A stretch of DNA of 52,712 bases from a virus: positions 1 to 52,712 of IMG/VR virus record IMGVR_UViG_3300035698_010599. One strand, written 5' to 3'. This document shows, piece after piece, positions 1,031-50,438 of the stretch. The translations under genes and the position numbers were made by a program. The notes under the pieces were generated by a model. The model saw only the letters and a list, made by a program, of their open reading frames with translations. It made no database searches and was not told the origin of the DNA. How positions within the stretch are numbered: the first letter of the stretch is position 1; every line of letters begins with the position of its first letter.

Positions 1031-1204
1031 AATATATTTTTTTTTATATATTAAAATAATAATTTATATCGAATTTAAAATTAAAAAAACAATCAATATA
1101 ATAATTACTTCTATATATGGAATTATCAATACAGAATTTTCTCTGACCATTTTTGGTTTAATTTTAATAACTTTTGATATGTCAATTTTTATTTTTTTCA
1201 TTTT

Positions 1205-1687
1205 CTATGTTTTGATTCTGGAAAATAATTTATCTAAATTAATATTCTTACTTAAATCTAATTCTGTTAATTGATTATGTCGACAATATAAAACCCTTAA
1301 TTTAATATTCTTACTTATGTCTAATTCGGTTAATTGATTATTATTACAATATAATGTCTCTAAATTAATATTCTTAGTTACATCCAATTCATCTAATTGA
1401 TTATGATGACAATTCAAAGTTTTTAAATTAATATTCTTAGTTACATCTACTTTAGTTAATTGATTGTCATAACAATACAATACTTCTAAATTAATTAATT
1501 TATCAATACCAATTAAATCAGTTAATTTTTTATTATGACAATTAATTACTTTTATATCTTTCCATGTACCTTCATCTGGATATTTAATCTTTAAGCATGT
1601 AAGAAATGTACCATCTGGTTCTACTTCATTCCAATCCTCCTCACCAAAAGGATCAACATATTCATTATATTCTTTTATGTATTTCAT
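1205..1687 (-). CDS. LRR protein, group A, short (about 4 repeats)
   Basis: 160 residues: MKYIKEYNEYVDPFGEEDW head, N-cap with FLTCLKIKYPDEGTWKDI (Cys replaces the usual Trp of the WLK motif), then about four LRRs, ending NLDKLFSRIKT. The last repeat breaks off mid-unit, which suggests loss of the original 3' end. The start codon overlaps the stop of the upstream copy as ATGA, so the two genes are probably translationally coupled. No function can be assigned beyond LRR-mediated binding. Confidence 0.88.
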   Translation of the reverse strand: MKYIKEYNEYVDPFGEEDWNEVEPDGTFLTCLKIKYPDEGTWKDIKVINCHNKKLTDLIGIDKLINLEVLYCYDNQLTKVDVTKNINLKTLNCHHNQLDELDVTKNINLETLYCNNNQLTELDISKNIKLRVLYCRHNQLTELDLSKNINLDKLFSRIKT

Positions 1688-2673
1688 ATATCTAAATTGG
1701 AATTCGGAGAAATAACTTTATATCTTAAATTAATATTCTTACTTAAATCTAATTTGTTTAATTGGTTATTATAACAATGTAAAGAGATTAATTTAATATT
1801 ATCACTTAAATCTAATTTAATTAATTTATTATCAGAACAATATAATTCTATGATATTATTATTTAAATTTAATTCTATTAATTGATTATTCTTACAATTT
1901 AAATATATTAAATTAATCTTACTTACATCTAATTCTGTTAATTGATTATATAAACATGATAATTCTATTAATTTAATATTCTTAGTTACATCTAATTCTG
2001 TTAATTGGTTATAACCACAAAATAGATTATCTAAATTAATATTTTTACTTATATCCAGTTCTATTAATTGATTGTGATGACAAAATAAATTTGTTAATTT
2101 AATATTCTTAGTTACATCTAATTCTGTTAATTGGTTATTATAACAATGTAAATTTTTTAAATTATTCTTAGTTACATCTAATTCTATTAATTGATTATGA
2201 TAACAATGTAAATTTATTAATTTTATATTCTTAGTAATATCCAATTTATTTAATTGATTACGACAACAATATAAATATTCTAAATTAATATTCTTACTTA
2301 CATCTAATTCTGTTAACTGATTATCACTACAATATAAATATAATAAATCAATATTAACATTCAATTCAGTTAATTGATTATTAAAACAATGTAAATATTC
2401 TAAATTAATATTCTTACTTACATCTAATTCTGTTAATTGATTACGATGACAAGATAATTTTCTTAAATTAATTAATTTCTCAATACCAATTAAATCCGTT
2501 AATTCTTGATAACGGCAATTAATTTCTGTCATATCTTTCCATTTACTTTCATTGGGATGATTAATTCTTAACCATGTAAGAAATGTCCCATCTGGTTTAG
2601 GGACTTCTATTTCATCCCAATCCTCTTCATTAAAAGGATCAACATATTTATTATATTCTTTTATATATTTCAT
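1684..2673 (-). CDS. LRR protein, group A, longest copy (about 12 repeats)
   Basis: 329 residues, the largest group A member. The head is MKYIKEYNKYVDPFNEEDW followed by DEIEVPKPDG, then the N-cap (FLTWLRINHPNESKWKDM, LTDLIGIEKLINL) and about twelve LRRs, each with the Leu-x-Cys-x-x-Asn core. Several repeats are shortened by one to three residues (for example LTELNVNIDLLYLYC and LTELDVSKINLIYLNC), as expected from slippage between 63-bp DNA repeats. It ends SPNSNLDI without a capping domain. It overlaps the next gene downstream by ATGA. The role is unknown; extended binding surface by fold. Confidence 0.9.
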   Translation of the reverse strand: MKYIKEYNKYVDPFNEEDWDEIEVPKPDGTFLTWLRINHPNESKWKDMTEINCRYQELTDLIGIEKLINLRKLSCHRNQLTELDVSKNINLEYLHCFNNQLTELNVNIDLLYLYCSDNQLTELDVSKNINLEYLYCCRNQLNKLDITKNIKLINLHCYHNQLIELDVTKNNLKNLHCYNNQLTELDVTKNIKLTNLFCHHNQLIELDISKNINLDNLFCGYNQLTELDVTKNIKLIELSCLYNQLTELDVSKINLIYLNCKNNQLIELNLNNNIIELYCSDNKLIKLDLSDNIKLISLHCYNNQLNKLDLSKNINLRYKVISPNSNLDI

Positions 2674-2690
2674 TTTATATGTTTTCTAAA

Positions 2691-3287
2691 TTATTTTCTT
2701 AAATCCATTAATTTAATATTTTTACTAGTATCTAATTCCTTTAATTGATTATCAAAACAATATAAACATTTTAAATTAACATTTTTAGTTACATCTAATT
2801 TAGTTAATTGATTTTGATAACAATATAAATTTGTTAAATTAATATTTTTACTATATAATTCTGTTAATTGATTAGTATGACAATATAAATATACTAAATT
2901 AATATTTTTAGTTACATCTAATTCAATTAATCGATTACTATAACAATATAAATCCAATAATTTAATATTCTTAGTTACATCTAATTCTGTTAATTGATTA
3001 TATGAACAATTTAAATATCCTAAATTAATATTATTACTTAAATCTAATTCAGATAATTGGTTATGTTCACAAGATAACGATTTTAAGTTAATTAATTTTT
3101 CAATACCAATTAAATCTGTTAAATTACTATTACGACAATTAATTTCTTTTATATTTTTCCATTTATTTTCATCGGGATATTTAATTTTTAACCATTTAAG
3201 AAATTCACTATGTGGTGGTTCTACTTCATCCCAATCCTCTTCATTAAAAGGGTCAATATATTCATTATATTCTTTTATGTATTTCAT
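2691..3287 (-). CDS. LRR protein, group A, about 6 repeats
   Basis: 198 residues with head MKYIKEYNEYIDPFNEEDW and a slightly different acidic linker (DEVEPPHSEFLKWLK), so here the family DGTFLTWLK becomes HSEFLKWLK. About six LRRs follow, one lacking two residues (LTELYSKNINL). It ends in LMDLRK. This is the promoter-proximal gene of the minus-strand series; the 166-bp gap to the plus-strand series (3288-3453) must hold its promoter. Confidence 0.88.
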   Translation of the reverse strand: MKYIKEYNEYIDPFNEEDWDEVEPPHSEFLKWLKIKYPDENKWKNIKEINCRNSNLTDLIGIEKLINLKSLSCEHNQLSELDLSNNINLGYLNCSYNQLTELDVTKNIKLLDLYCYSNRLIELDVTKNINLVYLYCHTNQLTELYSKNINLTNLYCYQNQLTKLDVTKNVNLKCLYCFDNQLKELDTSKNIKLMDLRK

Positions 3288-3453
3288 TTATTATTAATAT
3301 ATATTAAATACTCCAATCAAAAACCTATGAAAATAAAATTTTATTTCGCAACTTGACATGTTAATATCTTTTTTAAATCATCAAATATTTTTCATTTAAA
3401 TTACTAAATTTTTATAAAATAATCAATTCTTTTTATATATATATATATGATAT
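3288..3453. other. Divergent intergenic region between two LRR gene series
   Basis: This 166-bp gap separates the minus-strand series from the plus-strand series and must carry divergent promoters. It contains a 16-bp palindrome AAATAAAATTTTATTT near 3329-3344 and an AT run just before the plus-strand start. I see no clear consensus promoter. The two flanking gene starts form an imperfect inverted repeat of roughly 60 bp. Confidence 0.5.
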
Positions 3454-4047
3454 ATGAAATACATAAAAGAATATAATAAATATGTTGATCCTTTTGATGA
3501 GGATGATTGGGATGACCCCCCTAAACCGGATGGAACATTTCTTACTTGGTTAAAAATTAAATACCCAAATGAATATACATGGAAAGACATAATTATGATT
3601 GATTGTGAATATCAAAGTTTAACAGATTTAATTGGTATTGAGAAATTAATTAATTTAGAATATTTACATTGTAATGATAATTTATTAACTGAATTAGATA
3701 TTAGTAAGAATATAAAATTAATAGATGTATGTTGTGATAATAATCAACTAATCAATTTATATACAAATATTTATTTAATAGAATTAATTTGTTCTAATAA
3801 TAAATTAACAGAATTAGATTTAAGTAAGAATATTAATTTAAGAAATTTACTTTGTGATTATAATCAATTAACTGAATTAGATGTAACTAAAAATATTAAT
3901 TTAAAAGAATTATTTTGTAATAATAATCAATTAACAGAATTAGATTTAAGTAAGAATATTAAATTAATATATTTACATTGTTATCATAATCAATTAAAAG
4001 AATTAGATATAAGTAAGAATAATAAATTAAAATATAAAACCATATGA
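3454..4047 (+). CDS. LRR protein, group A, about 6 repeats
   Basis: 197 residues. Head MKYIKEYNKYVDPFDEDDW, then DDPPKPDG, the N-cap (FLTWLKIKYPNEYTWKDI, LTDLIGIEKLINL) and about six LRRs. The third repeat region is more diverged (NQLINLYTNIYLIELIC). The gene is the first of a two-gene plus-strand series, and its stop overlaps the next start as ATGA at 4044. Function unknown; LRR binding protein by fold. Confidence 0.88.
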   Translation: MKYIKEYNKYVDPFDEDDWDDPPKPDGTFLTWLKIKYPNEYTWKDIIMIDCEYQSLTDLIGIEKLINLEYLHCNDNLLTELDISKNIKLIDVCCDNNQLINLYTNIYLIELICSNNKLTELDLSKNINLRNLLCDYNQLTELDVTKNINLKELFCNNNQLTELDLSKNIKLIYLHCYHNQLKELDISKNNKLKYKTI

Positions 4048-4586
4048 AATACATAAAAGAATATAATGAATATATTGATCCTTTTAATGAAGAAGATTGG
4101 GATGAAGTAGAACCACTTGAACCAGATGGAACATTTCTTACATGGTTAAAGAATAAATGCCCTGATGATAGTAAATGGAAAGACATAGAAGAACTTGATT
4201 GTGGGTATAAAAAATTAACAGATTTAATTGGTATTGAGAAATTAATTAATTTAAAATATTTATTTTGTGATAATAATCAATTAACTGAATTAGATATAAC
4301 TAAAAATATTGAATTAGAAACATTATATTGTAATAAAAATCAGTTAACTGAATTAGATATAACTAATAATATTAAATTAAGATATTTATATTGTTATAGT
4401 AATCAATTAACTGAATTAAATGCAACTAATAATATTAAATTAAGATATTTATTGTGTCATCATAATCAATTAACTGAATTAAATATTAGTAAAAATATAA
4501 AATTAGAAAGATTATATTCTCATCATAATCAATTAACTGAATTAGATGTTGGTAAAAATATTAATTTAACACATAAAAGAATATGA
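4044..4586 (+). CDS. LRR protein, group A, about 5 repeats
   Basis: 180 residues: MKYIKEYNEYIDPFNEEDW head, EVEPLEPDG linker, N-cap (FLTWLKNKCPDDSKWKDI), about five LRRs. In the last repeat the conserved Cys is Ser (LERLYSHHNQL), and the protein stops shortly after at NLTHKRI. Its stop again overlaps an ATG that begins a further copy of the tag (see 4583-4603), so the array once continued. Confidence 0.88.
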   Translation: MKYIKEYNEYIDPFNEEDWDEVEPLEPDGTFLTWLKNKCPDDSKWKDIEELDCGYKKLTDLIGIEKLINLKYLFCDNNQLTELDITKNIELETLYCNKNQLTELDITNNIKLRYLYCYSNQLTELNATNNIKLRYLLCHHNQLTELNISKNIKLERLYSHHNQLTELDVGKNINLTHKRI

Positions 4587-7837: not shown

Positions 7838-8437
7838 ATGAGAATTAATGATTTAGAGGACATAGGACATAACCAGTGTGTTGATATTGATCCTTTTAAT
7901 GAAGAGGATTGGGGAGAAATCGATAAATGTAATTTTCTTGGATGGTTAAAATTTAATTATCCTGATGAGAGTAAATGGAAAGATATAAAATATATTAATT
8001 GTGCTTATCAAAATTTAACTGATTTAATTGGTATTGATAAATTAATTAACTTAAAATCATTATCTTGTGAACATAACCAATTATCTGAATTAGATATAAC
8101 TAAGAATATTAAATTAAAATATTTACATTGTGGACATAATCAGGTAACTAAATTGAAGTTAAATAAGAATTTAGAAGAATTATATTGTAATTATAATCAA
8201 TTAACTGAATTAGATGTAAGTAATAATATTAATTTAGAATGTTTATATTGTAATTATAATCAATTAACTGAATTAGATTTTAGAGATACTAAATTAAAAT
8301 GTTATTCATATGAAAATAATCCATTAATAGTAATAAGAAAAAGTAAATTTCATTTTAGAAGATTTTTTAAAAAAATAAAAAAACTATTTAATTATATCAC
8401 ACATAATGTAGGTTTTGTCACTGGAAGCTCATTATAA
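7838..8437 (+). CDS. LRR protein, group B, about 4 repeats with basic tail
   Basis: 199 residues. The leader MRINDLEDIGHNQCVDI replaces the MKYIKEYNEY tag but is followed by the same DPFNEEDW motif, then an N-cap (FLGWLKFNYPDESKWKDI, LTDLIGIDKLINL) and about four LRRs. After a degenerate last repeat (YENNPLIVIRKSKF) comes a strongly basic stretch, HFRRFFKKIKKLF, and a short tail GFVTGSSL. The basic tail recurs in all group B proteins and could bind nucleic acid or membrane. The function is unknown. Confidence 0.88.
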   Translation: MRINDLEDIGHNQCVDIDPFNEEDWGEIDKCNFLGWLKFNYPDESKWKDIKYINCAYQNLTDLIGIDKLINLKSLSCEHNQLSELDITKNIKLKYLHCGHNQVTKLKLNKNLEELYCNYNQLTELDVSNNINLECLYCNYNQLTELDFRDTKLKCYSYENNPLIVIRKSKFHFRRFFKKIKKLFNYITHNVGFVTGSSL

Positions 8438-8475
8438 ATATATATCGTTTTTTTTCAATAAAATAGGCAATTTTT

Positions 8476-8508
8476 TTATCTGAAAAATTATTAGTATATT
8501 TGTATAAA
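8476..8508 (+). promoter_or_regulatory. Conserved upstream element of group B LRR genes, copy 2
   Basis: Nearly identical to the element before 7838: ATCTGAAAAATTATTAG then TATATTTG, with identity extending through the start codon region (TATCATGAGAATTA). This indicates duplication of gene plus leader. It is the likely promoter of the 8517 gene. Confidence 0.5.
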
Positions 8509-8516
8509 AAAATATC

Positions 8517-9101
8517 ATGAGAATTATCCAAAATTTCCTTGCCCATCAATTAAATGATTTAGAGGACATAGTGTATAACCATTGTGATCCTTTTAATGAA
8601 GAGGATTGGGATGAAGTAGAAACAGGATCATTTCTTATATGGTTAAAAACTAATTATCCTGATGAGAGTAAATGGAAAGATATAACAGCAATTAATTGTT
8701 ATAATCAAAAATTAACAGATTTAATCGGTATAGAGAAATTTATAAATTTAGAAGAATTATCTTGTGCTTATAATCAATTAACTGAATTAGATGTAACTAA
8801 AAATATTAATTTAAGAGAATTATTTTGTTATAATAATCAATTAACTGAATTAGATGTAAGTAAAAATGTTAATTTAATAAACTTATATTGTTCTAATAAT
8901 CAATTAACAAAATTAAATGTAACTAAAAACATATTAAAGTTTTTATATTGTGATAATAATCAATTAACAGAATTAGATTTAAGTACTAAATTAAAATATT
9001 GTTCATATGAAAATAATCCATTAGTAGTGGTAAGAAAAAGTAAATTTCATTTTAGAAGATTTTTTAAAAAACCCATTGTAGTATGGGATTGTAATTTATG
9101 A
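8517..9101 (+). CDS. LRR protein, group B, about 4 repeats
   Basis: 194 residues. Leader MRIIQNFLAHQLNDLEDIV, then DPFNEEDWDEVETGS, the N-cap (FLIWLKTNYPDESKWKDI, LTDLIGIEKFINL) and about four LRRs. It ends in the group B tail (ENNPLVVVRKSKF, HFRRFFKKPIVVWDCNL). Leader and upstream region are shared with the 7838 gene, so the two are a recent duplication, yet the repeat residues differ. Confidence 0.88.
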   Translation: MRIIQNFLAHQLNDLEDIVYNHCDPFNEEDWDEVETGSFLIWLKTNYPDESKWKDITAINCYNQKLTDLIGIEKFINLEELSCAYNQLTELDVTKNINLRELFCYNNQLTELDVSKNVNLINLYCSNNQLTKLNVTKNILKFLYCDNNQLTELDLSTKLKYCSYENNPLVVVRKSKFHFRRFFKKPIVVWDCNL

Positions 9102-9141
9102 ACTTGTATCAGTTTTATCTCATTAATGATTAAAATGGGTA

Positions 9142-9168
9142 ATTGGAAAATTATTAGTATATTTATAG
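9142..9168 (+). promoter_or_regulatory. Conserved upstream element of group B LRR genes, copy 3
   Basis: AATTGGAAAATTATTAG followed by TATATTTA: the same block as before 7838 and 8517, but the last box base is A rather than G, as in the copy before 11253. The downstream leader (TGAATTTTTAATTAAGAATA) is also shared with the 11253 gene. Confidence 0.45.
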
Positions 9169-9192
9169 ATGAATTTTTAATTAAGAATAAAT

Positions 9193-9789
9193 ATGAATGA
9201 AATGAAATATAACCATTGGATTGATCTCTTTAATGAAGAGGATTGGGATGAAGTAGAACCAGATGGATCATTTCTTGGGTGGTTAAAAAGTAAATATCCT
9301 GATGAAAATACATGGAAAGATTTAACAATGATTGATTGTACTTATCAAAATTTAACTGATTTAATTGGTATTGATAAATTAATTAATTTACAATATTTAT
9401 CTTGTTATAATAATCAATTAATTGAATTAGATGTAAGTAAAAATATTAATTTAGAAGGTTTATCTTGTTATCATAATAAATTAACAGAATTAGATGTAAC
9501 TAAAAATATTAATTTAATTAATTTAGTTTGTTATAATAATCAATTAACAAAATTAGATGTAAGTAAGAATATAAAATTAGAATTTTTATATTGTAATGAT
9601 AATCAACTAATTGAATTAGATTTAAGAAATATTAAATTGAAAACTTATTCATATATTATAAATAATCCATTAATAGTAGTAAGAAAGAATAGATTTCCTT
9701 TTAGAAGATTTTTGAAAAAAATAATTACTTTTGTGATTTTGGTTGTCACTAAAAAAGCGAAATTCGATGAAAATTTCATGGGGTGCTAA
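9193..9789 (+). CDS. LRR protein, group B, about 4 repeats
   Basis: 198 residues from ATG 9193. The paralogues at 9820 and 11253 start at the codon equivalent to Met4 here (MKYNH at 9202), because a base change in this copy created an extra upstream ATG; 9202 may be the true start. The head is MKYNHWIDLFNEEDW, with DPF reduced to LF. Then come the N-cap (FLGWLKSKYPDENTWKDL), about four LRRs and the basic tail (NNPLIVVRKNRF, PFRRFLKK), ending KAKFDENFMGC. Confidence 0.86.
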   Translation: MNEMKYNHWIDLFNEEDWDEVEPDGSFLGWLKSKYPDENTWKDLTMIDCTYQNLTDLIGIDKLINLQYLSCYNNQLIELDVSKNINLEGLSCYHNKLTELDVTKNINLINLVCYNNQLTKLDVSKNIKLEFLYCNDNQLIELDLRNIKLKTYSYIINNPLIVVRKNRFPFRRFLKKIITFVILVVTKKAKFDENFMGC

Positions 9790-9819
9790 GTCAGGAAAAT
9801 AAGAATAAATACGATTGAA

Positions 9820-10464
9820 ATGAAATATAACCATTATATTGATATTGATCCCTTTAATGAAGAGGATTGGGATGAAATAGAGCCAGATGATACATTTCTT
9901 GCGTGGTTAAAAATTAATTACCCTGATGAAAATACATGGAAAGATATTAAAGAGATTAATTGTAGATATCAAAAATTAACGGATTTAATTGGTATAGAGA
10001 AATTAATTAATTTAAGAGAATTATCTTGTTCTAATAATCAATTAAGAGAATTAGATGTAAGTAAGAATATTAAATTAAGAATTTTATTTTGTGACAATAA
10101 CCAATTAATTGAATTAGATGTAAATGAGAATTTAATCTCTTTACATTGTTATAATAACCAATTAACTAAATTAGATGTAACTAAGAATATTAATTTAAAA
10201 TATTTATATTGTTATAGTAATCGATTAACAGAATTAGATTTAAGAGATATTAAATTAAAAGACTATTCATATAGAGTACAAATAATGATTGGTTTTATCC
10301 GGACATCAATAGTAGTGAGAAAGAGTAGATTTCCTTTTAGGAGATTTTTGAAAAAAATAATCATTTTTGAAAAAAATAATTTTTGTATCATTAAAAAAAT
10401 AAAATCGTTTGTAATTTTGATTAAATGGTTTATCCTATCACCTCCCGAAAATTATGAGTTATGA
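9820..10464 (+). CDS. LRR protein, group B, about 4 repeats
   Basis: 214 residues. Head MKYNHYIDIDPFNEEDW, acidic EIEPDD, N-cap (FLAWLKINYPDENTWKDI, LTDLIGIEKLINL) and about four LRRs, one shortened (VNENLISLHC). After the repeats come SYRVQIMIGFIRTS and the basic tail VVRKSRFPFRRFLKK plus a long Lys/Ile-rich extension. The stop overlaps the next gene's ATG as ATGA. It is nearly the same gene as that at 11253 in head and tail while differing in repeats. Confidence 0.88.
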   Translation: MKYNHYIDIDPFNEEDWDEIEPDDTFLAWLKINYPDENTWKDIKEINCRYQKLTDLIGIEKLINLRELSCSNNQLRELDVSKNIKLRILFCDNNQLIELDVNENLISLHCYNNQLTKLDVTKNINLKYLYCYSNRLTELDLRDIKLKDYSYRVQIMIGFIRTSIVVRKSRFPFRRFLKKIIIFEKNNFCIIKKIKSFVILIKWFILSPPENYEL

Positions 10465-11156
10465 TCAAGGAAAAATTCGAATATAATTTTGATATAGATC
10501 CTTTTAATGAGGAGGATTGGGATGAATTAGAACCAGATGGTACATTTCTCACATGGTTAAAGATTAATTATCCAAATGAAGGTATATGGAAAGATATAAA
10601 AATAATTAATTGTAATAATAAGAATTTAACAGATTTAATTGGTATTGAGAAATTAATTAATTTGAAATATTTATATTGTCATCGTAATGAATTAAAGGAA
10701 TTAAATATTAGTAATAATATTAAATTAAATGGATTATATTGTCATAATAATCAATTAACTGAATTAAATGTAACTAAGAATATAAAATTAGAAGAATTAA
10801 ATTGTTATCATAATCAATTAACAGAATTAGATGTAACTAAGAATATTAAATTAATATATTTACATTGTCGTAATAATCAATTAATTGAATTAGGTGTAAC
10901 TAATAATATTAGATTAATGAATTTCTATTGTAATAATAATCAATTAACAGAATTAGATGTAACTAATAATATTAATTTGATTGGTTTAAATTGTTCTAAT
11001 AATCAATTAACTGAATTAGATGTAACTAAGAATAACCTAATAGTAGTAAGAAAGAGTAAATTTTCTTTTAGAAGATTTTTAAAAAAAGTGAATAAATTTA
11101 ACTCAAAACTATTTAATTATTTTATTATGATCAGAAATGGTGCCGATTTTTCTTAA
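10461..11156 (+). CDS. LRR protein, group B, about 6 repeats
   Basis: 231 residues. The leader MIKEKFEYNFDI precedes DPFNEEDWDELEPDG, the N-cap (FLTWLKINYPNEGIWKDI) and about six regular LRRs. The last repeat runs directly into NNLIVVRKSKFSFRRFLKK, the group B tail, then NSKLFNYFIMIRNGADFS. Its start overlaps the upstream stop (ATGA), so expression is probably coupled to the 9820 gene. Confidence 0.88.
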   Translation: MIKEKFEYNFDIDPFNEEDWDELEPDGTFLTWLKINYPNEGIWKDIKIINCNNKNLTDLIGIEKLINLKYLYCHRNELKELNISNNIKLNGLYCHNNQLTELNVTKNIKLEELNCYHNQLTELDVTKNIKLIYLHCRNNQLIELGVTNNIRLMNFYCNNNQLTELDVTNNINLIGLNCSNNQLTELDVTKNNLIVVRKSKFSFRRFLKKVNKFNSKLFNYFIMIRNGADFS

Positions 11157-11189
11157 AATAGTTATGTTAACTTGGTATTAAAAAATGGG

Positions 11190-11216
11190 GTAATTGAAAA
11201 ATTATTAGTATATTTA
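11190..11216 (+). promoter_or_regulatory. Conserved upstream element of group B LRR genes, copy 4
   Basis: TAATTGAAAAATTATTAG followed by TATATTTA, matching the elements before the other independently transcribed group B genes. The gene at 10461, which is coupled by overlap, has no such element, and none is evident before 9820. This fits a role in transcription initiation. Confidence 0.45.
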
Positions 11217-11252
11217 TAGGTGAATTTTTAATTAAGAATAAATACGAATGAA

Positions 11253-11828
11253 ATGAAATATAACCATTGTATTGATATTGATCCCTTTAATGAAGAGGAT
11301 TGGGATGAAATAGAACCAGATAACACCTTTCTTACGTGGTTAAAAATTAATTACCCTGATGAAAATACATGGAAAGATATTAAAGAGATTAGTTGTAATT
11401 TTCGGAAATTAACGGATTTAATTGGTATAGAGAAATTAATTAATTTAAGAGAATTATATTGTACACATAATCAATTAACAGAATTAGATGTAAGTAAGAA
11501 TATTAAATTAAGAATTTTATTTTGTGACAATAACCAATTGATTGAGTTAGATGTAAATGAGGATTTAAATTCTTTAACTTGTTATAATAATCAATTAAGG
11601 AAATTAGATGTAACTAAGAATATTAATTTAAAAGGATTATTTTGTTATAATAATCAATTAATTGAATTAGATGTAAGTAAGAATATTAAATTAAAAGACT
11701 ATTTATATTCATATAGAGCACAAAGAACTCTGAGCGGTATACTAGTAGCAAGAAAGAGTAGATTTCCTTTTAGAAGATTTTTGAAAAAAATCATTAAAAA
11801 AAATAAAATCGTTTGTAATTTTGATTAA
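11253..11828 (+). CDS. LRR protein, group B, about 4 repeats
   Basis: 191 residues. Head MKYNHCIDIDPFNEEDW, N-cap (FLTWLKINYPDENTWKDI) and about four LRRs. Tail SYRAQRTLSGILVARKSRF then PFRRFLKKIIKKNKIV. Head, parts of repeats 2-3 and tail are almost identical to the 9820 gene at the DNA level, whereas the segment at the N-cap/first repeat junction (EISCNFRKLT against EINCRYQKLT) differs. This mosaic pattern suggests local gene conversion or relaxed copying. Confidence 0.88.
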   Translation: MKYNHCIDIDPFNEEDWDEIEPDNTFLTWLKINYPDENTWKDIKEISCNFRKLTDLIGIEKLINLRELYCTHNQLTELDVSKNIKLRILFCDNNQLIELDVNEDLNSLTCYNNQLRKLDVTKNINLKGLFCYNNQLIELDVSKNIKLKDYLYSYRAQRTLSGILVARKSRFPFRRFLKKIIKKNKIVCNFD

Positions 11829-13668: not shown

Positions 13669-14733
13669 ATGAAAAATAATATGAAATTAGAAATAAAACC
13701 AATAACAACCATTAAAATGTTATTATTAAAAACTAAAATGGGACATATAAAATGGAATTATATAAATGAGAACCCTAAAGAAAAATATACATCGAAATAT
13801 AAGATAACTAAAAATAAAGTTATTGATATTCTTTTGACAAAATTAAAATTTCCTGATAGTGAAAATTATTATATATCTTTTCATTATAAAACCAAACTGA
13901 TATCCACATATTATTATCAAGATTTAGATATTATATATGATTTATTTGTTAGTGTTAAATTCTCTAGTTTAACAAAATCAGATAAGAGTTTTTTTTTAGA
14001 TCATATTTTAATAAATTGTGAATGGGTTAAACATGTAACTGATAATATTATAACTTATTCAACAATATTTGAAAAGAAAGATAATAATAAAGTTTATTTG
14101 GAATTAAAAGTAAGAGAATTATCACAATTATATATTTTATTAAATGGCGCTACGATACAAACTATTGATAGTGGTGATTTATTTAAAGAATTACAAAATA
14201 TGAATATAAAAACCGAATCAAATTTTATGAGATGGTTAAAAATAAAATATCCAGATGAAAGTAAATGGAAAGATATAATAAAAATTGATTGTGGTGCTCA
14301 AAGATTAACTGATTTAATTGGTATTGAGAAATTAATTAATTTAGAAAGATTATATTGTTCTGATAATATATTAACAGAATTAGATGTAACTAAGAATATT
14401 AAATTAACTCATTTATATTGTGGTTATAATCAATTAACTGAATTAGATATAACTAAGAATATTAATTTAGAATTTTTATATTGTTATAACAATGAATTAA
14501 CAGAATTAGATGTAACCAATAATAATTTAAAATATTTATATTGTAATAATAATCAATTAACAGAATTAGATTTAAGTAACAATATCAATTTAGAATGTTT
14601 ATATTGTTTTAATAATCAATTAACAGAATTAGGTGTAAGTAAAAATATTAAATTAAAATATTTATCATGTAATAATAATCAATTAATAGAATTAGATTTA
14701 AGTAAGAATATAAAATTGAAACATTCATTTTGA
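13669..14733 (+). CDS. LRR protein, group C, with unique 180-residue head domain
   Basis: 354 residues. A mixed alpha/beta head of about 180 residues (landmarks GHIKWNY, YYISFHYKTK, YYYQDLDIIYDLFVSVKF, DHILINCEWVKHVTDN) has no recognised family. It is followed by the shared N-cap (SNFMRWLKIKYPDESKWKDI, LTDLIGIEKLINL) and about six LRRs, ending KLKHSF. The DPFNEEDW motif is absent. Met5 (13681) aligns with the start of the third copy, so either Met could be used. First of three tandem copies. Confidence 0.9.
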   Translation: MKNNMKLEIKPITTIKMLLLKTKMGHIKWNYINENPKEKYTSKYKITKNKVIDILLTKLKFPDSENYYISFHYKTKLISTYYYQDLDIIYDLFVSVKFSSLTKSDKSFFLDHILINCEWVKHVTDNIITYSTIFEKKDNNKVYLELKVRELSQLYILLNGATIQTIDSGDLFKELQNMNIKTESNFMRWLKIKYPDESKWKDIIKIDCGAQRLTDLIGIEKLINLERLYCSDNILTELDVTKNIKLTHLYCGYNQLTELDITKNINLEFLYCYNNELTELDVTNNNLKYLYCNNNQLTELDLSNNINLECLYCFNNQLTELGVSKNIKLKYLSCNNNQLIELDLSKNIKLKHSF

Positions 14734-14752
14734 GAAAAAAACATTTTAATTA

Positions 14753-15835
14753 ATGAAAAATAATATGAAATTAAAAACAAACCCAACAATAACCATTGAA
14801 ATATTATTATCAAAAACTAAATTGGGGCATATAAAATGGAAACATGTAGATGAGAATGATTTATATTATGAGCCTGATAAAGAAAAATATACATCGAAAT
14901 ATAAAGCAACTGAAAATAAAATTATTGATATTCTTTTAACAAAAAGAAAACTTCCTTTTAGTGGTGAAAATTATTATATATCTTTTCATTATAAAACTAA
15001 ACAAATAACCGCATATTATTATCAAGATTTAGATATTATATATGATTTATTTGTTAGTGTTAAATTCTCTAGTTTAACAAAATCAGATAAGAGTTTTTTT
15101 TTAGATCATATTTTAAATTGTGAATGGGTTAAACATGTAACTGATAATATTATAACTTATTCAACAATATTTGAAGAGAAAAATAATAAGAAAATTTATT
15201 TGAAATTAAGAAAATCATCACAATTACATATTTTATTAAATAATGTTACGATACAAACTATTGATAGTGGTGATTTATTTAAAGAATTACAAAACATGAA
15301 TATAAAAATAAAAACCGAATCAAATTTTATGAAATGGTTAAAAAATAAATATCCCGATGAAAGTAAATGGAAAGATATAACTAAAATTGAATGTGGTTAT
15401 CAAAATTTAACTGATTTAATTGGTATTGAGAAATTAATTAATTTAAAATGTTTAGTTTGTTATCACAGTAAATTAATTGAATTAGATTTAAGTAAAAATA
15501 TTAAATTAACATTTTTAGATTGTTCTCATAATCAATTAACAGAATTGGGTTTAAGTAACAATATTAATTTAGAATATTTATATTGTTCTCATAATCAATT
15601 AAGGGAATTAGATGTGACCAATAATGATTTAATAGATTTATATTGTCATTATAATCAATTAAGAGAATTAGATGTTAGTAATAGTATTAATCTAAAAACA
15701 TTATTTTGCCACAATAATCAATTAACTGAATTAAATGTAACTAAAAATATTAATTTAATATGTTTATATTGTTCTCATAATCAATTAACCGAATTAGATT
15801 TAAGTAAGAATATAAAATTGAAATATTCATTTTGA
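14753..15835 (+). CDS. LRR protein, group C, second copy
   Basis: 360 residues, same layout: head domain, N-cap (SNFMKWLKNKYPDESKWKDI) and about six LRRs ending KLKYSF. Around residues 80-130 the head is nearly identical in DNA to the other two copies, while residues 20-70 and the LRRs are more different. A two-residue insertion precedes the N-cap (NIKIKTESN). Spacing from the previous copy is only 19 bp, with no obvious separate promoter, so it is probably co-transcribed. Confidence 0.9.
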   Translation: MKNNMKLKTNPTITIEILLSKTKLGHIKWKHVDENDLYYEPDKEKYTSKYKATENKIIDILLTKRKLPFSGENYYISFHYKTKQITAYYYQDLDIIYDLFVSVKFSSLTKSDKSFFLDHILNCEWVKHVTDNIITYSTIFEEKNNKKIYLKLRKSSQLHILLNNVTIQTIDSGDLFKELQNMNIKIKTESNFMKWLKNKYPDESKWKDITKIECGYQNLTDLIGIEKLINLKCLVCYHSKLIELDLSKNIKLTFLDCSHNQLTELGLSNNINLEYLYCSHNQLRELDVTNNDLIDLYCHYNQLRELDVSNSINLKTLFCHNNQLTELNVTKNINLICLYCSHNQLTELDLSKNIKLKYSF

Positions 15836-15903
15836 GAAAAAAATAAATTTTAATTTTCATAATAAATATATATATATATAAGAATATAAATAAAAAATAA
15901 TAT

Positions 15904-16962
15904 ATGAAATTAAAAACAAAAGCAAGAACAACCATTAATATATTATTATCAAAAACTCAATTGGGTCATATAAAATGGAAACATATATATAGGGATAATT
16001 TGTATTATGAACCTAATAAAGAAAAATACTCATTGAAATATAAAGTAACTGAAAATAAAGTTATTGATATTCTTTTAACAAAATTAAGGTTTCTTAATGA
16101 GGATGGAAATTATTTTATATCTTTTCATTATAAAACTAAACCGATATCCACATATTATTATCAAGATTTAGATATTATATATGATTTATTTGTTAGTGTT
16201 AAATTCTCTAGTTTAACAAAATCGGATAAGAGTTTTTTTTTAGATCATATTTTAATAAATTGTGAATGGGTTAAACACGTAACTGATAATATTATAACTT
16301 ATTCAACAATATTTGAAGAGAAAAATAATAAGAAAATTTATTTGAAATTAAGAGAATCATCACGATTACATATTTTATTAAATAATGCTACGATACAAAC
16401 TATTGATAGGGGTGATTTATTTAAAAAATTACAAAACATGAATATAAAAACCGAATCAAATTTTATGAGATGGTTAAAAAATAAATATCCAGATGAAAGT
16501 AAATGGAAAGATATAACTAAAATTAATTATGCGGGTAAGGATTTAATTGGAGTAGAGAAATTAATTAATTTAGAAACATTATATTGTTCATATGACCAAT
16601 TAACTGACTTAGATGTAAGTAAAAATATTAAATTAAAGAATTTCTCTTGTGCTAATAATCAATTAACTGAATTGAATTTAAGTAATAATATAAATTTAGA
16701 ATATTTATATTGCCATCATAATGAATTAACTAAATTAGATTTAACTAAAAATATTAATTTGGTGTTTTTATATTGTAATTATAATCAATTAACCGAATTA
16801 GATGTAACTAAGAATATTAATTTAATTAATTTATATTGTCATAATAATCAATTAAAGGAATTAGATGTAACTAAGAATATTAGATTAAAAAATTTATATT
16901 GTCGTGCAGGAACGAAAGATATAAAGATACATACCGAAAATGATTCAATTATCAGAGATTAA
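15904..16962 (+). CDS. LRR protein, group C, third copy with altered N-cap
   Basis: 352 residues. The upstream leader repeats that of the first copy, but the first ATG has become ATA, so translation must begin at MKLK. The head domain is intact. The N-cap has lost several residues: SKWKDITKINYAGKDLIGV replaces the usual KDI ... C ... LTDLIGI. About five LRRs follow, and the last is interrupted by a different tail (CRAGTKDIKIHTENDSIIRD), suggesting recombination at the 3' end. Confidence 0.88.
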   Translation: MKLKTKARTTINILLSKTQLGHIKWKHIYRDNLYYEPNKEKYSLKYKVTENKVIDILLTKLRFLNEDGNYFISFHYKTKPISTYYYQDLDIIYDLFVSVKFSSLTKSDKSFFLDHILINCEWVKHVTDNIITYSTIFEEKNNKKIYLKLRESSRLHILLNNATIQTIDRGDLFKKLQNMNIKTESNFMRWLKNKYPDESKWKDITKINYAGKDLIGVEKLINLETLYCSYDQLTDLDVSKNIKLKNFSCANNQLTELNLSNNINLEYLYCHHNELTKLDLTKNINLVFLYCNYNQLTELDVTKNINLINLYCHNNQLKELDVTKNIRLKNLYCRAGTKDIKIHTENDSIIRD

Positions 16963-24032: not shown

Positions 24033-25325
24033 CTATGAAACGTTTATGGTAAGTTTATCAAGTAATAATTTTAATCCAAAATGTTTTGGTTCAATTTTCA
24101 TTAATTCATCTAAATTTACCCATTTATAATTTTGGGTTTCCCAATTTAATGTTGGATTAAATTCATTTTCTATTAATCCAACGAAATTATAATATATAAA
24201 TCCAATTTCTTTATATATAAATGATGATATTAATTTTATATAATTATTGTACCCTGTTTCTTCTTTAAATTCCCTTAAAGTTGTTTTTTTTATATTATTC
24301 ATATCATCATTATCAACTTTACCACCCCACACCCCCCATGTATTAGGCTCCATAACATAATTAGATCTATGTGCAATTAAAAACCGTTTAGTTTTTTCAC
24401 AATATGGTAATACACCAGCACCAATATTTCCCCATCTTGCACTGGTAATATTTTCTTGTATATATGAGCTGGTAATATGTTCATTTATTAAATTAGTATT
24501 AATCATCAATACGTTGGAATCTGTATATTCAGCTGTATAGTTCTTTAAGAAACTATTTGTTAAATTTTTATAATCTTTAATAATATAATTTTCAGGTGCA
24601 AATATATGTTCCATATATGTTAAAAAGTTCATGTTATGATTTTTCATACCATTAATTATTTTATGAAACAATTCGTCATCAGTAGGACGCCTACGAACCC
24701 CCCGTCTGTTAATACTTAATTCACTTAACTCTTTGGGTTTTGTGTTATTAAATATTTTTTCTAATTTTTTTATTTTATTATCGACTGTATTTAATGTTAC
24801 ACCTCCTACTAATTCTGATAAAAATGAGGCAAGGTCTGATGGGTCTCTAAAATAATAATTAAATTCTTTTTTAAATTTTTCTGTTTGGTAATTACCAAAT
24901 AAACGTGGTAAACAAATGATTTTAGCATCATCAAATGGGATGATAGTAAATATATTTCCATTACCAAAAAAATTTGCTAAATTTTTATCATGGGTCATAT
25001 TTAATGAGTTTTTCTTTAATGGGTAGTTTTTATTATCCCATAATTTAGATGATATAAACCTAGTTGTTATGTGATTAAAATCAAATACCATTTGATTTTT
25101 AGTTTTTTTGCTTTTAATTAAATAGTATTTTTTGTTTAGACTTTTATCACCTCTATAAAAAATAACATTATTATCATTATAAATTTTACAATATTTATTT
25201 TTAATATTTATAAATTCTTCTTTAGTTAATTCCTTTGAATAATTTATATTAATTAAATTATTTTTAAAATTCAAGTCATTAGATTCTAATATAACTTTTT
25301 TGAAATTGTTGTATTTTATAATCAT
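24033..25325 (-). CDS. Probable ADP-ribosyltransferase-like and NUDIX fusion with head-type leader
   Basis: 430 residues. Residues 1-14 (MIIKYNNFKKVILE) resemble the tag of internal head proteins. Residues 50-140 look like an ADP-ribosyltransferase core: VIFYRGD (Arg58), KKNSLNMTHDKNLANFFG (S-x-T strand at 107-111), then NIFTIIPFDDAKI; the third catalytic Glu is not obvious. The C-terminal third is a NUDIX hydrolase: GAGVLPYCEK, TWGVWGGKVDNDD and REFKEETGY (351-359), though the box has two extra residues and lacks its first Glu. T4 Alt is a head-packaged ART, so a packaged NAD-linked enzyme is plausible. The NUDIX call is firm; the ART call is moderate. Confidence 0.65.
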   Translation of the reverse strand: MIIKYNNFKKVILESNDLNFKNNLININYSKELTKEEFINIKNKYCKIYNDNNVIFYRGDKSLNKKYYLIKSKKTKNQMVFDFNHITTRFISSKLWDNKNYPLKKNSLNMTHDKNLANFFGNGNIFTIIPFDDAKIICLPRLFGNYQTEKFKKEFNYYFRDPSDLASFLSELVGGVTLNTVDNKIKKLEKIFNNTKPKELSELSINRRGVRRRPTDDELFHKIINGMKNHNMNFLTYMEHIFAPENYIIKDYKNLTNSFLKNYTAEYTDSNVLMINTNLINEHITSSYIQENITSARWGNIGAGVLPYCEKTKRFLIAHRSNYVMEPNTWGVWGGKVDNDDMNNIKKTTLREFKEETGYNNYIKLISSFIYKEIGFIYYNFVGLIENEFNPTLNWETQNYKWVNLDELMKIEPKHFGLKLLLDKLTINVS

Positions 25326-30700: not shown

Positions 30701-33316
30701 ATGGGAAATTTTATAGACACATTAAAAACATCAAGAAATGAAAAAGATGTTGAAAATAACTATCGTGGGTATTTTAATTCAGTTTTAGATAGATATGCGA
30801 AAACAACTAAAAATGATAAAATTGGGAGAATTACTTCACCATGTAATACAGATGGTTTCTTAAAATATAATGGGAAATTAAAATATGGCAAACAATTTGA
30901 AAAATTAAATATTAATTGTTTATTTGAATTTAAGAATGATGAAGATTTAACTAATAAAACTGATAGATCAAGAATCATAATTCAATGTTTATATTATATG
31001 AAGAAATTTGAATTGGACGGCAAATTTTCTTTACCGACCACTTTATTTATTGCCGATATAAATGAATATTTTATTATTAATACAGATTTAATTATTAAAT
31101 ATTTAGATTATGATTTAAATTGGAATATCGCACCAAGTAAATCAGGTTATCAAAATAATGAATTATTAATGGAAATTATCCAGAATGATGAACTTAATAA
31201 TATGATATATGTTGGTGATATAGATAAAAATTTCAAACCAATGGAAATTTTAAGAAGAATTAATAATGTATCCAAAAATAGTAAAATTAAATTTAGAATA
31301 TCTATTCATAGTATTGGTTTAGCATATAATACATTTATGAAAAAAGTATTAACCGAAAAAAATATATCCGTTAATGATTCAGTAAATCTTTTTATTCATA
31401 CACTAATTGATAGAGTTAATAATTATCAACACCCTAAAAAAATAAATATTTTAATAACTAAAGGATTTGGTGAAATTAAAATAAATGGTTCAAATTATAA
31501 ATCATATATTAACCATTTTAATACTGAATTATCACCAAAAGAAAAAGAAATTATAACTGCTACCCAAGATAGACTTATTGAAGATGAAACAAGAAGAAAA
31601 AGTGGTGAATTTTTTACTCCCACAATTTGGGTTGATGAAGCACACAAAATGGTAACTGAAACATTTGATGAAAATTGGAAGGACGAATATGTTGTATGGG
31701 ACAATTCATGTGGAACAGGTAATTTAACCCGTGATTATAAATTTAAAGAATTATATTGTTCTACACTTTTGAAAAGTGATATTGAAACAATGGAACAATC
31801 AGGGTATAATCCAGAGGCAACTAAATTTCAGTATGATTTTTTAAATGATGGTATTAATGATAATGGGGAAATTGATATTGAAAATGATTCTAAATTACCT
31901 CAAGGATTGAAAGATGCAATTTTAGAAGGTAAAAAAATTATTACTTTGATGAATTCTCCTTATGGTAGAGCAAGTAGTGGAATAAATGGAAAAGAATCAA
32001 GTAGGACAGGAATCGCAAATACTGAAATTGGTAAACATATGAAAAATTTAGATGGGGCATCTTCACAATTATATACTCAATTTTTATATAAAATTTTGAA
32101 AATAAATGAAAAATATAATGCGAATATAAATATTTCATTTTTTGCTAAATCACTTTATTTGAGTGGGAGTTCTTTTAAAAAGTTTAGAAAAATATTTTTA
32201 AATAATTTTGAATATATTAATGGTATGTTATTTAACGCATCACATTTCGATGGTGTTAGTTCTCAGTGGGGTGTTGATTTTTCTATTTGGAAACGTGGTG
32301 TGACAAAGGATAAATTCAATTTTATACACAAAGTGAAAGATGTTGTAGACATTGAAGTTAAAATTATTAGAGAAAAAAATATTTACAATATTGATAATAT
32401 TACAAGTGCAACAAAGTGGGTCCCAACACCAAAAGGTGATAAAATAGATTCACCTAAATTATCATCAGGGTTAAAAGTTAAACAAAAAGGTCAAAATTTG
32501 TATGAAAATTGTATTGGTAGTTTTGTCAATAAGGGAAACAATATTATGTATAATGATAAATTAGCAATACTATTGTCTGCGGGTTTTAGTGATAATGGAT
32601 CGGGGGCAATTTCTATATCAGATGATAATTTTTTAGAGTGTGTTTCTTTATTTTCATCAAGAAAATTAATTAGTGGAAAATTTTCAAATTGGATAAACGA
32701 TAAAGATGAATATATGGCACCAATTAAAGAAATTCAACAAACATCACAATATAAACAATTTAATAATGATGCTATTGTTTATTCATTGTTCAACACAAGT
32801 TCAAATCAAAGTTCAATGAGACAAATTGAATACAAAGATAAACTTTGGGATATTAATAATGAATTCTTTTGGATGGATAAAGATGAAATATTAGAACTTG
32901 GAGAAAAATATAAATTTGACGAATTATATAAAGATGCTAGAACATCTAAAAATAGATATGTTTATGATTTATTAAAATCTATAACTTTAAGTCCAGATGC
33001 TAAAGAACTTTTAGAAATGTCTAAAGAACTTATCAGAAAATCTTTTGAATGGAGAAAAATTATGCACCAATCAAATCCAGAATATCATTTACACGCATGG
33101 GATGCGGGTTGGTATCAAATCAAGAAAATTCTAAATGAACATTTTAAAGATGAATATAAAGTATTTGTTGGAAAATATAAAGCATTTGAAGATAGATTAA
33201 GACCACAAGTTTATGAACTAGGTTTTCTAAAAAGTGATGAAATTGTTGAAACAATAGATATAAAAGAAATATCAGATTTAGCTTTATTCCCAGGATTTGT
33301 GTCTATAACCGCATAA
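30701..33316 (+). CDS. Type IIG-like restriction endonuclease/adenine methyltransferase
   Basis: 871 residues. The N-terminal region fits a PD-(D/E)xK nuclease: TDGFL (Asp51), LFEFKND (Glu76, Lys78) and IIIQCLYY (Gln95). A helical connector follows. The methyltransferase core has KSGEFFTP (motif X, about 301-307), VVWDNSCGTGNLTRD (motif I, SAM binding) and LMNSPYGRA (motif IV, 418-422, NSPY for NPPY). The C-terminal 400 residues would hold target recognition. As one polypeptide it could both mark phage DNA and cut unmodified host or competitor DNA; a methylation-only role is equally possible. Confidence 0.75.
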   Translation: MGNFIDTLKTSRNEKDVENNYRGYFNSVLDRYAKTTKNDKIGRITSPCNTDGFLKYNGKLKYGKQFEKLNINCLFEFKNDEDLTNKTDRSRIIIQCLYYMKKFELDGKFSLPTTLFIADINEYFIINTDLIIKYLDYDLNWNIAPSKSGYQNNELLMEIIQNDELNNMIYVGDIDKNFKPMEILRRINNVSKNSKIKFRISIHSIGLAYNTFMKKVLTEKNISVNDSVNLFIHTLIDRVNNYQHPKKINILITKGFGEIKINGSNYKSYINHFNTELSPKEKEIITATQDRLIEDETRRKSGEFFTPTIWVDEAHKMVTETFDENWKDEYVVWDNSCGTGNLTRDYKFKELYCSTLLKSDIETMEQSGYNPEATKFQYDFLNDGINDNGEIDIENDSKLPQGLKDAILEGKKIITLMNSPYGRASSGINGKESSRTGIANTEIGKHMKNLDGASSQLYTQFLYKILKINEKYNANINISFFAKSLYLSGSSFKKFRKIFLNNFEYINGMLFNASHFDGVSSQWGVDFSIWKRGVTKDKFNFIHKVKDVVDIEVKIIREKNIYNIDNITSATKWVPTPKGDKIDSPKLSSGLKVKQKGQNLYENCIGSFVNKGNNIMYNDKLAILLSAGFSDNGSGAISISDDNFLECVSLFSSRKLISGKFSNWINDKDEYMAPIKEIQQTSQYKQFNNDAIVYSLFNTSSNQSSMRQIEYKDKLWDINNEFFWMDKDEILELGEKYKFDELYKDARTSKNRYVYDLLKSITLSPDAKELLEMSKELIRKSFEWRKIMHQSNPEYHLHAWDAGWYQIKKILNEHFKDEYKVFVGKYKAFEDRLRPQVYELGFLKSDEIVETIDIKEISDLALFPGFVSITA

Positions 33317-46259: not shown

Positions 46260-47549
46260 ATGAAAAATTTAAAATTAGAACTTTTCAATTTTAAACAAAA
46301 ATTGGGTTATGAACAAAGTGATATATCAACAATTGTTGAAAAAATATTAACTGGATATGATAATTATTCGGAAAAAGAAATCAAGAAGGTACTAAATGAG
46401 AAATTGATTAAATATGCATATGACACTGAAGTGAAAAATCTACTAGAAAAAGTTGATACAGAAATAGAATCTAATAGTCTTACTTATGAATTAAAAGATT
46501 TGTATAAACAAATAGAAAGACAAAATCAGGGAATGATATATAGACAACCCCTAAATACTGTTCTTGAAATTATCAATAAACCAGATGATGATTCAAAAAT
46601 GGAATCTATTCTAAATGAATTACAAATTTATGATTGGGTCCCTCAAATTAAAAAATTTATATTTGAATTGACTAAAAATCCGGTTGATAGACAAAACATG
46701 ATAAACTCTGGTAAAGGCGATAAATTATATACATTAGTAGAAAAATTAGATAATGGTAATTATATGGTGTTTGTTGCTGATAGATGGTTCATTTTAGATG
46801 AAAACAATATCGAACAAACTTTACTTGAAGATAATATCGATAATGATGATAGAATAAGAGAGTTAAGAATTATTGAACAAGCTATGACATTATCAGAATT
46901 CAAAGATGGTATATTTTATTTAAAAATTGATGAAAATTTAACAATTGGATTATCAACAAAAGATAAAGCTTTATTCGTGAATGATGAAAAATTAGATACG
47001 GAAACAACATTAGAAAATATTTTTAATTCACCAATTATACCATATCTTAAAAAAGATTATTTTTCTCTGTTGAATACATTAAAAGAAAATCTTAATAATA
47101 TTGTTGAACTTGATGTATCAATTAAAGTTAGTAACATATTAAATCCATTCCTAGAAGCTTATGTATTTAATTACAAAGATAAAATGTATCTTTATAATAA
47201 AGATATGAGAACAGGGTCTTCGTTTTATCAATATGAATCAGTAAACGAAATGATTAGGGATATTAAAAAAGAATTAGATTATGACTTATCTTCATTCTTA
47301 GAAAATAAATTATCTAAAGAAATGAAAAAATTAAGAGGATTAGAAGATAAAGAAAAAGTTTTAGAATCTAAAATTAAAGATGTTCAAGAATCTGTTGATG
47401 AATTGAAAAATGAACCAGAATTGTTAGAAAGTAACAAAGAATTGAAATTGACATTTGATAATCTTTTATTATACAAACATCAATTAACTAATAAATTAAA
47501 TGGATATAAAGATAAAAAAACTCAATATCGTAAATCTACATTTAATTAA
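46260..47549 (+). CDS. Hypothetical protein with C-terminal coiled coil, likely virion-associated
   Basis: 429 residues, start MKNLKLELFNFKQKLGYEQ. Mixed alpha/beta centre (LDNGNYMVFVADRWFILDEN) and a charged C-terminal coiled coil (LSKEMKKLRGLEDKEKVLES, KIKDVQESVDELKNEPELLE). It lies in the late block between gp15 and the sigma factor gene and is followed by a strong hairpin. Long coiled coils are common in prohead core proteins, but no family is recognised. Confidence 0.62.
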   Translation: MKNLKLELFNFKQKLGYEQSDISTIVEKILTGYDNYSEKEIKKVLNEKLIKYAYDTEVKNLLEKVDTEIESNSLTYELKDLYKQIERQNQGMIYRQPLNTVLEIINKPDDDSKMESILNELQIYDWVPQIKKFIFELTKNPVDRQNMINSGKGDKLYTLVEKLDNGNYMVFVADRWFILDENNIEQTLLEDNIDNDDRIRELRIIEQAMTLSEFKDGIFYLKIDENLTIGLSTKDKALFVNDEKLDTETTLENIFNSPIIPYLKKDYFSLLNTLKENLNNIVELDVSIKVSNILNPFLEAYVFNYKDKMYLYNKDMRTGSSFYQYESVNEMIRDIKKELDYDLSSFLENKLSKEMKKLRGLEDKEKVLESKIKDVQESVDELKNEPELLESNKELKLTFDNLLLYKHQLTNKLNGYKDKKTQYRKSTFN

Positions 47550-47561
47550 AATTTATAAAAT

Positions 47562-47602
47562 AATAAAATGGATTATTTGAATAACAGATAATCCATTTTA
47601 TT
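47562..47602 (+). terminator. Intrinsic terminator hairpin
   Basis: AATAAAATGGATTAT (47562-47576) pairs with ATAATCCATTTTATT (47588-47602), a perfect 15-bp stem with an 11-nt loop and trailing T's, 13 bp after the stop of the 46260 gene. Confidence 0.7.
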
Positions 47603-47669
47603 TACCCTGAAAGTTATTGTTAACAAATGGCAAACCAACAAATATTTTACTAAAAATAAAAAAAGATTT

Positions 47670-48050
47670 ATGAAAAAATATAATGAATTTATTAATGAAA
47701 GATTTTTTAAAAAAAGAGTTACACCAGAATCAATTATCGATGAACCGATTGACACCATAACAGAAGAAGATGATACATCTACAGATTTCGTTTACTTATT
47801 AAAAAAAGTATATGATAATAATGAATTATATTTAACTAATATATATAGAGATTATGGTGCAGTATTTCAAATACCTTATTCAGATGGTAAAAAAAGAGAA
47901 ATAAGAATTAGATGGGATAGTGATGAAATAATCGTAAGCGACGGACCACGAAATCTTTTTCAAGGTAGAACAGATGATGATAAATATAAAGAAATAGTTA
48001 TTTTTTATGTAGAAAAATTAAAAAATACCGAATTTGATTTATCTAATTAG
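47670..48050 (+). CDS. Hypothetical protein with capsid-targeting-like tag
   Basis: 126 residues. MKKYNEFINE is almost the T4 capsid-targeting sequence MKTYQEFIAE: same length, Tyr, Phe, Ile and Glu in register, and INE as a possible prohead-protease site. An acidic spacer (EPIDTITEEDDTSTD) and a small beta-rich domain (AVFQIPYSDGKKREIRIRWD) follow. No family is recognised. Probably an internal head protein. Its end overlaps the convergent 48047 gene by 4 bp. Confidence 0.65.
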   Translation: MKKYNEFINERFFKKRVTPESIIDEPIDTITEEDDTSTDFVYLLKKVYDNNELYLTNIYRDYGAVFQIPYSDGKKREIRIRWDSDEIIVSDGPRNLFQGRTDDDKYKEIVIFYVEKLKNTEFDLSN

Positions 48051-48502
48051 TGAGTTAATTGTGATTTATATCTAAAGAATACTCTATAATAACCGTTATA
48101 TAAATCAAATTCATTAGCACCATAATCAAAGAATATTCTTCTTAATTCTGAATACAAACCGGGATCTTGTAATAGGATTTCTTTTTTCTCTTTAATATTA
48201 AAATATAGTGTATGAGCATAAAATTCTGGTTCACTATCAGCCATATTTCTCATTTTTATATCAGTTATTAGTAAATTGTAAGCGTTAAATTCATTTATGA
48301 GTTTATCTTTAATATTACTTAAAAATTTTATTCCATCATATTTAAATTTATTACCCGCAAATACATTTCCTCTATTTATAAAGTCATCAATATCTACAAT
48401 AATTTTTTCATCAAACATTCTAGCAGATGGCATATATTGTATTATTGTTTCTGTATCATACTTATCATATTCTAATAAAAAGTTTTTAAATTTTTTAATC
48501 AT
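48047..48502 (-). CDS. Hypothetical protein with capsid-targeting-like tag
   Basis: 151 residues. The leader MIKKFKNFLLE fits [YF]-x-[EN]-F-[IL]-x-E, with LLE as the possible cut site, followed by YDKYDTETIIQYMPSARM and an alpha/beta body (FRYKSQLTH end). It is read opposite to the surrounding late genes. No family is recognised. Virion packaging is inferred from the leader only. Confidence 0.62.
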   Translation of the reverse strand: MIKKFKNFLLEYDKYDTETIIQYMPSARMFDEKIIVDIDDFINRGNVFAGNKFKYDGIKFLSNIKDKLINEFNAYNLLITDIKMRNMADSEPEFYAHTLYFNIKEKKEILLQDPGLYSELRRIFFDYGANEFDLYNGYYRVFFRYKSQLTH

Positions 48503-49172: not shown

Positions 49173-49187
49173 AAACAAAAACATATT

Positions 49188-49688: not shown

Positions 49689-49692
49689 AAAA

Positions 49693-50403: not shown

Positions 50404-50438
50404 TTTTTAATATATACTAAAAAATAAAATATAAATAA

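Follow-up and report, generated by a model that had tools for sequence, protein, structure and literature searches.

The open reading frame at 24033-25325 (minus strand) raises the question of whether a phage could carry in its head a single protein that joins an active ADP-ribosyltransferase (ART) to a NUDIX hydrolase, as an earlier note had proposed. It is part of a virus record from IMG/VR whose entire length, 52,712 bases, is here called the window. The frame is open over 430 aa from an ATG start, on the strand and at the coordinates originally claimed, and an obvious ribosome-binding site was not found upstream of its start. The motifs quoted for it are all present in the translation: KYNNFKKVILE at residues 4-14, FYRG at 56-59, SLNMT at 107-111, NFFGNGNIF at 118-126 and REFKEETGY at 351-359. 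The gene is conserved across two phages and is no lone oddity; a full-length orthologue with about 51% identity and its own leader is found at L187:2227-3429, with a tandem neighbour at L187:1394-2230 that is devoid of the NUDIX domain. The features of the window protein are as follows.

25284..25325, minus strand: leader, residues 1-14 (MIIKYNNFKKVILE), capsid-targeting-like, with an I-x-E terminus (ILE, residues 12-14)
24474..25256, minus strand: ART-like domain, residues 24-284, of phrog_12810/11975 (hhalign and family profile)
25152..25154, minus strand: Arg58 of FYRG, the motif-1 Arg (R in 113 of 123 family members)
24528..24533, minus strand: Ala265-Glu266, site of the family's near-invariant Glu, now Ala (alignment)
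24039..24434, minus strand: NUDIX domain, residues 298-429 (Pfam and PHROGs)
24249..24323, minus strand: NUDIX box, residues 335-359, GKVDNDDMNNIKKTTLREFKEETGY (alignment, comparison with L187)

The C-terminal NUDIX domain

The presence of a C-terminal NUDIX domain is borne out by searches with the 430-aa protein, which gave a Pfam match above the cut-off (PF00293, E 2.3e-11, residues 302-416) and a PHROGs match to phrog_1198 (E 3.4e-19); PADLOC returned a weak NUDIX match and nothing else. Read against the reference pattern GX5EX7REUXEEXGU, the NUDIX box is irregular in the manner described earlier, with 15 residues between Gly and Arg where the normal spacing is 13, the first Glu absent and REFKEE (in REFKEETGY) kept. 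The box of the orthologue (GGKIEDNEDIEESAIREFEEESG) has the normal length and its first Glu, so that the change is private to the window's lineage. Wherever the first five phage NUDIX sequences of the alignment agree in a column, the window has kept the residue; the irregular box could nonetheless mean that activity is impaired.

The domain shares its subfamily with the phage MutT/NUDIX proteins of phrog_1198, such as QDH83582 of Achromobacter phage Motura and BcepSauron gp99, at 31-42% identity, and identity to the NUDIX domain of the orthologue reaches 65%. Motura QDH83582, which is related to the window domain at E 3e-15, was named a probable ADP-ribose processor by Iyer et al. (PMC7824862). 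The phrog_1198 proteins are mostly standalone, whereas the window domain sits behind a leader-plus-domain of 297 residues and has an irregular box. The same subfamily was also seen embedded in phage open reading frames of 1000-2000 aa (L203, L215, L224, L226, L241 and similar), which are candidates for polyvalent virion proteins.

Family membership of the N-terminal domain

Residues 1-285 had no Pfam or PHROGs match, sequence searches of Pfam, NCBIfam and the PDB gave no information on the N-terminal domain, and with the full protein as query, tblastn and pattern searches returned NUDIX relatives or nothing. With the N-terminal half alone, tblastn produced matches at E 2-9 only, and it was two of these weak matches, in the huge-phage genomes LR756502 and LR756508, that opened up the family: open reading frames of both genomes match phrog_12810 and phrog_11975, two entries that carry no function, and members were also traced to Agrobacterium phage Atu_ph07 and Salicola phage SCTP-2 (gp385). 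After scans of IMG/VR the family stood at 173 members, many of them arranged in tandem arrays; the full profile A1 varied too much to be used for scanning the collection. One member (L164, JAEHCK010000133.1) lies on a contig assigned to the MAG of a Thermoplasmata archaeon, which may be a phage contig put in the wrong bin.

Profiles built without the window protein recognise its N-terminal domain. A 14-member profile was aligned to residues 36-141 by hhalign (prob 85) and scored 24-27 bits in hmmsearch (i-E 2.5e-7 to 1.6e-6); the profile of 173 members reached 52 bits (i-E 5e-15) over residues 24-283. Both hmmsearch scores were obtained with --max, as the default filters miss the domain. As controls, the best of 500 shuffles reached at most 5.6 bits and any other open reading frame of the window at most 10 bits. 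The N-terminal domain (24-283) belongs to this large nameless family, phrog_12810/11975; judged from its sequence, it is a member by descent whose putative active site has changed.

Resemblance to ADP-ribosyltransferases

ARTs of the R-S-E type carry an R, an S/T and an E motif in that order. The family presents its three motifs in the same order and in a form similar to ModA and ModB, with lYRG as the first, S-[IF]-C-[ST]-T..A..YG as the second, and E-V-[WM] followed by a hydrophobic strand as the third; the corresponding motifs of T4 ModA are PLWRG, SASYDKNIALHF and EQEVMIPAGSVFRI, with EQEVMIPAG for the late strand. In the window protein the middle motif, LNMTHDKNLANFF, is similar to that of ModA, R58 and T111 are present, and the ART Glu is replaced by Ala265. 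When 78 family members were compared with Pfam, the strongest match was to DRAT, an ART family (E 0.0025, one member only). This lead, a weak match in a single phage with 8e-6 for a single 54-kb record, could not be extended and was given up.

Structure prediction, which had been suggested as a check, gave an AlphaFold model of the Atu_ph07 family member AUZ94870, at L012:4001-4759, with pLDDT 92.4 and pTM 0.89 and a model of the window domain with pLDDT 78; the latter was limited to residues 1-293 because A6, a joint alignment of ART-like and NUDIX relatives, was dropped after it had aligned family members to the NUDIX half. By Foldseek, the family model had no PDB match at E <1 and the window model no significant PDB match, so neither could be tied to a solved fold. 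A search of BFVD returned at E <0.001 only the nameless family itself, and hhalign found no significant similarity of the family profile to ModA, ModB, Alt or a ModA/B profile built for the purpose (prob 0.2-3%). The claim of an ART-like region therefore stands as far as the motifs and their order are concerned, and is not backed by the structural and profile comparisons.

All of these negative comparisons would fit a domain that is no ART, with a fold or enzyme family of its own that was amplified in jumbo phage heads and looks like an ART by chance or convergence. To this reading, which overlaps with the one we prefer as regards packaging and the NUDIX domain, we give a lesser though substantial probability: the three ART-like motifs follow the expected order with similar local sequence, ARTs are very diverse, and Foldseek may miss them. 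Descent of the N-terminal domain from ARTs appears rather probable to us, the assignment being drawn solely from the order and look of the motifs and less secure than those of the NUDIX domain and of packaging.

Loss of conserved residues in the window clade

In an alignment of 54 relatives, four residues (window numbering) never vary, R77, R104, D145 and E265, and S79 hardly does; the window protein has N77, K104, N145, A265 and M79 in their place. A larger set of 123 members, in which the columns other than the Glu and R104 were aligned unreliably, has the Glu in 110 of 112 ungapped sequences and R104 in 120. According to the alignment the family Glu is Ala not only in the window but also in the L187 orthologue and in its tandem copy, and where the family has E-V-W-T the clade has A-E-Y-T or A-G-Y-T. 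The Glu next to the lost one was considered as a substitute and ruled out, since the equivalent of Ala265-Glu266 is A-G in the orthologue (A-E in the tandem copy). The three sequences have the motifs FYRGDK, PLKKNSLNM and IPFD.AKI in common, which suggests that selection of some kind still acts on the domain.

These substitutions bear directly on the original proposal, by which one head-packaged protein with both activities would attach ADP-ribose, or cleave NAD, and destroy the ADP-ribose products. FYRG, SLNMT..DKN.A..F and a late strand follow one another as in T4 ModA, and the DRAT match of a single relative points the same way; however, with the Glu and Arg104 lost and R77 and S79 changed, such a pair of activities is less likely than an injected NUDIX hydrolase, and we regard it as improbable. 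The sequences are better described as a degenerate ART-like domain, which by its loss of the Glu and other conserved polar residues would probably no longer transfer ADP-ribose. The members of phrog_12810/11975 elsewhere (Atu_ph07 gp53-63, SCTP-2 gp385 and the huge-phage genomes) have the same type of leader as the window protein and form tandem arrays; the Glu and other near-invariant residues are gone in the window clade.

The leader and probable head packaging

The prohead protease gp21 of T4 cuts after L/I-X-E, the capsid-targeting sequence comprises about 10 residues, and the first 10 residues of IPIII are sufficient for targeting (PMC9026906). The leader of the window protein resembles such a T4 capsid-targeting peptide, with a putative prohead-protease motif at its end. 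In T4, Alt and IPI-IPIII likewise have a short N-terminal leader ending at L/I-x-E, and a T4-type portal is found in the window phage too. Alt is an ART packaged in the head and injected into the host; there is no significant sequence similarity between it and the putatively packaged window protein, in which a NUDIX domain is fused and the ART-like residues are lost.

The likeness to internal head proteins noted previously extends to the family, 99 of whose 123 members have [LI]xE at residues 5-17, where internal stretches would predict 11. Among the NUDIX proteins of the closest clade the motif occurs in 22 of 52, with 8.6 expected and a maximum of 16 in 500 draws, and several close relatives have the leader directly on the NUDIX domain (MKYLKLYENYWG..., MKTKFKDFIKE...). 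Across all open reading frames of the window a loose [LI]xE shows no enrichment (14, with 12 expected), which means that only certain families possess the leader.

The genomic setting involves the following genes.

50439-52202, plus strand: T4-type portal gene (gp20; PF07230, E 7e-69)
47670-48502, both strands: two leader-bearing genes at the slot of the related phage's ART-NUDIX gene (synteny with L267)
47670-48050, plus strand: leader gene MKKYNEFINE, in this slot
48047-48502, minus strand: leader gene MIKKFKNFLLE, in this slot

The portal gene indicates head assembly of the T4 kind. The orthologue is part of a run of genes with leaders that precedes a T4-type portal gene by 5 kb, in a region syntenic with window genes 46260-52202; the order on its contig is the homologue of 46260, a leader gene, the pseudo-ART, the ART-NUDIX gene, two leader genes, the homologues of 48798, 49209 and 49693, and the portal. 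In the window itself, 25 kb separate the gene from the portal, the two lie on different strands, and the gene has opposite-strand neighbours instead of head genes; this isolation counts against packaging. A further comparison comes from Atu_ph07, where the array AUZ94865-94875 corresponds to gp53-63 by accession offset (gp2 = ClpX = AUZ94814, from passages of PMC6102473 and PMC7824862). The array falls inside the cluster of CDS 31-76, to which PMC6102473 assigns 29 proteins identified by virion mass spectrometry, an overlap of gene clusters rather than a member-by-member detection.

An ordinary intracellular phage NUDIX protein with an N-terminal extension, serving nucleotide-pool sanitation or NAD salvage outside the virion, would agree with the position of the window gene away from the head cluster and with the distant phage NUDIX proteins, of which only 1 in 41 has the leader motif. 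We consider it unlikely, given that the leader is present here and enriched both in the closest NUDIX clade and in the ART-like family, and that the orthologue is located within the head-gene cluster. Enrichment of the motif and the place of the orthologue in a leader-gene array near the portal together make head packaging of the window protein a well-supported inference.

Fusions and a possible role

Among all loci fetched, the fusion of ART-like and NUDIX domains occurs in the window and L187 only, and both partners have been joined to other domains. The family domain is fused to a C-terminal zeta-toxin-type kinase in Atu_ph07, is doubled in gp54 of the same phage, and in L022 has a ParB-like tail (by eye); NUDIX relatives stand behind a leader together with a weak GNAT match in L085 and with a ParB-like stretch (by eye) in L093. 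In the passages of PMC5512222 and PMC9503650 (Iyer, Burroughs, Aravind) on polyvalent head-packaged proteins of NAD-ADP-ribose metabolism, single virion proteins combine several injected effector domains, ARTs and Nudix included, and head-packaged ART, Macro, NADAR and Nudix proteins are proposed to counter NAD-derived signals (Iyer et al., PMC9503650); an ART-Nudix fusion of the window type, or its family, was not found in these passages.

We suggest, as a reading that falls just on the probable side, that the window encodes a NUDIX hydrolase that is packaged in the virion and injected, with a degenerate ART-like domain as its carrier. The leader (1-14) would direct the protein into the prohead, where a protease of the T4 gp21 type would cut after ILE14. 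The middle domain would have its origin in an ART-like family of jumbo phages that is packaged in heads and has multiplied in tandem, and would now probably act as a packaging or carrier module or in ligand binding. The NUDIX domain would enter the host alongside the DNA and hydrolyse a nucleoside diphosphate linked to X, most plausibly ADP-ribose or a defence signal derived from NAD or ADP-ribose. This would provide a candidate NUDIX enzyme delivered before phage gene expression, at the time when host defences based on NAD or ADP-ribose would need to be blocked. A large tandem-array family of jumbo phages that has no assigned function is also linked with head packaging by its T4-style cleavage motif, with one clade in which a putative enzyme seems to have turned carrier.

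More tentatively, the nameless family, with its lack of a solved-structure match, could be a leader-tagged delivery module that was amplified in tandem in jumbo phages and grafted with effectors (NUDIX, the zeta-toxin-type kinase of Atu_ph07, the ParB-like tail of L022), the window clade having given up the residues likely to be catalytic and retained another conserved pocket, e.g., for capturing a ligand of the NAD/ADP-ribose type for the NUDIX domain.

Other genes of the window

Elsewhere in the window, an 871-aa open reading frame at 30701-33316 has, by eye, the look of an N6-adenine methylase/restriction protein (no Pfam match at 0.001), and 21171-22589 matches DUF7487 and looks by eye like a homing endonuclease. 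About a dozen open reading frames at 362-4586 and 7838-11828 contain leucine-rich repeats (LRR_4 in one tested); many of them start with MKYIKEYNEY.DPF or carry a DPFNEEDWDE stretch, and they possibly represent another leader-bearing tandem family. Three tandem frames at 13669-16962 combine a common N-terminal domain with the same type of repeats (by eye).
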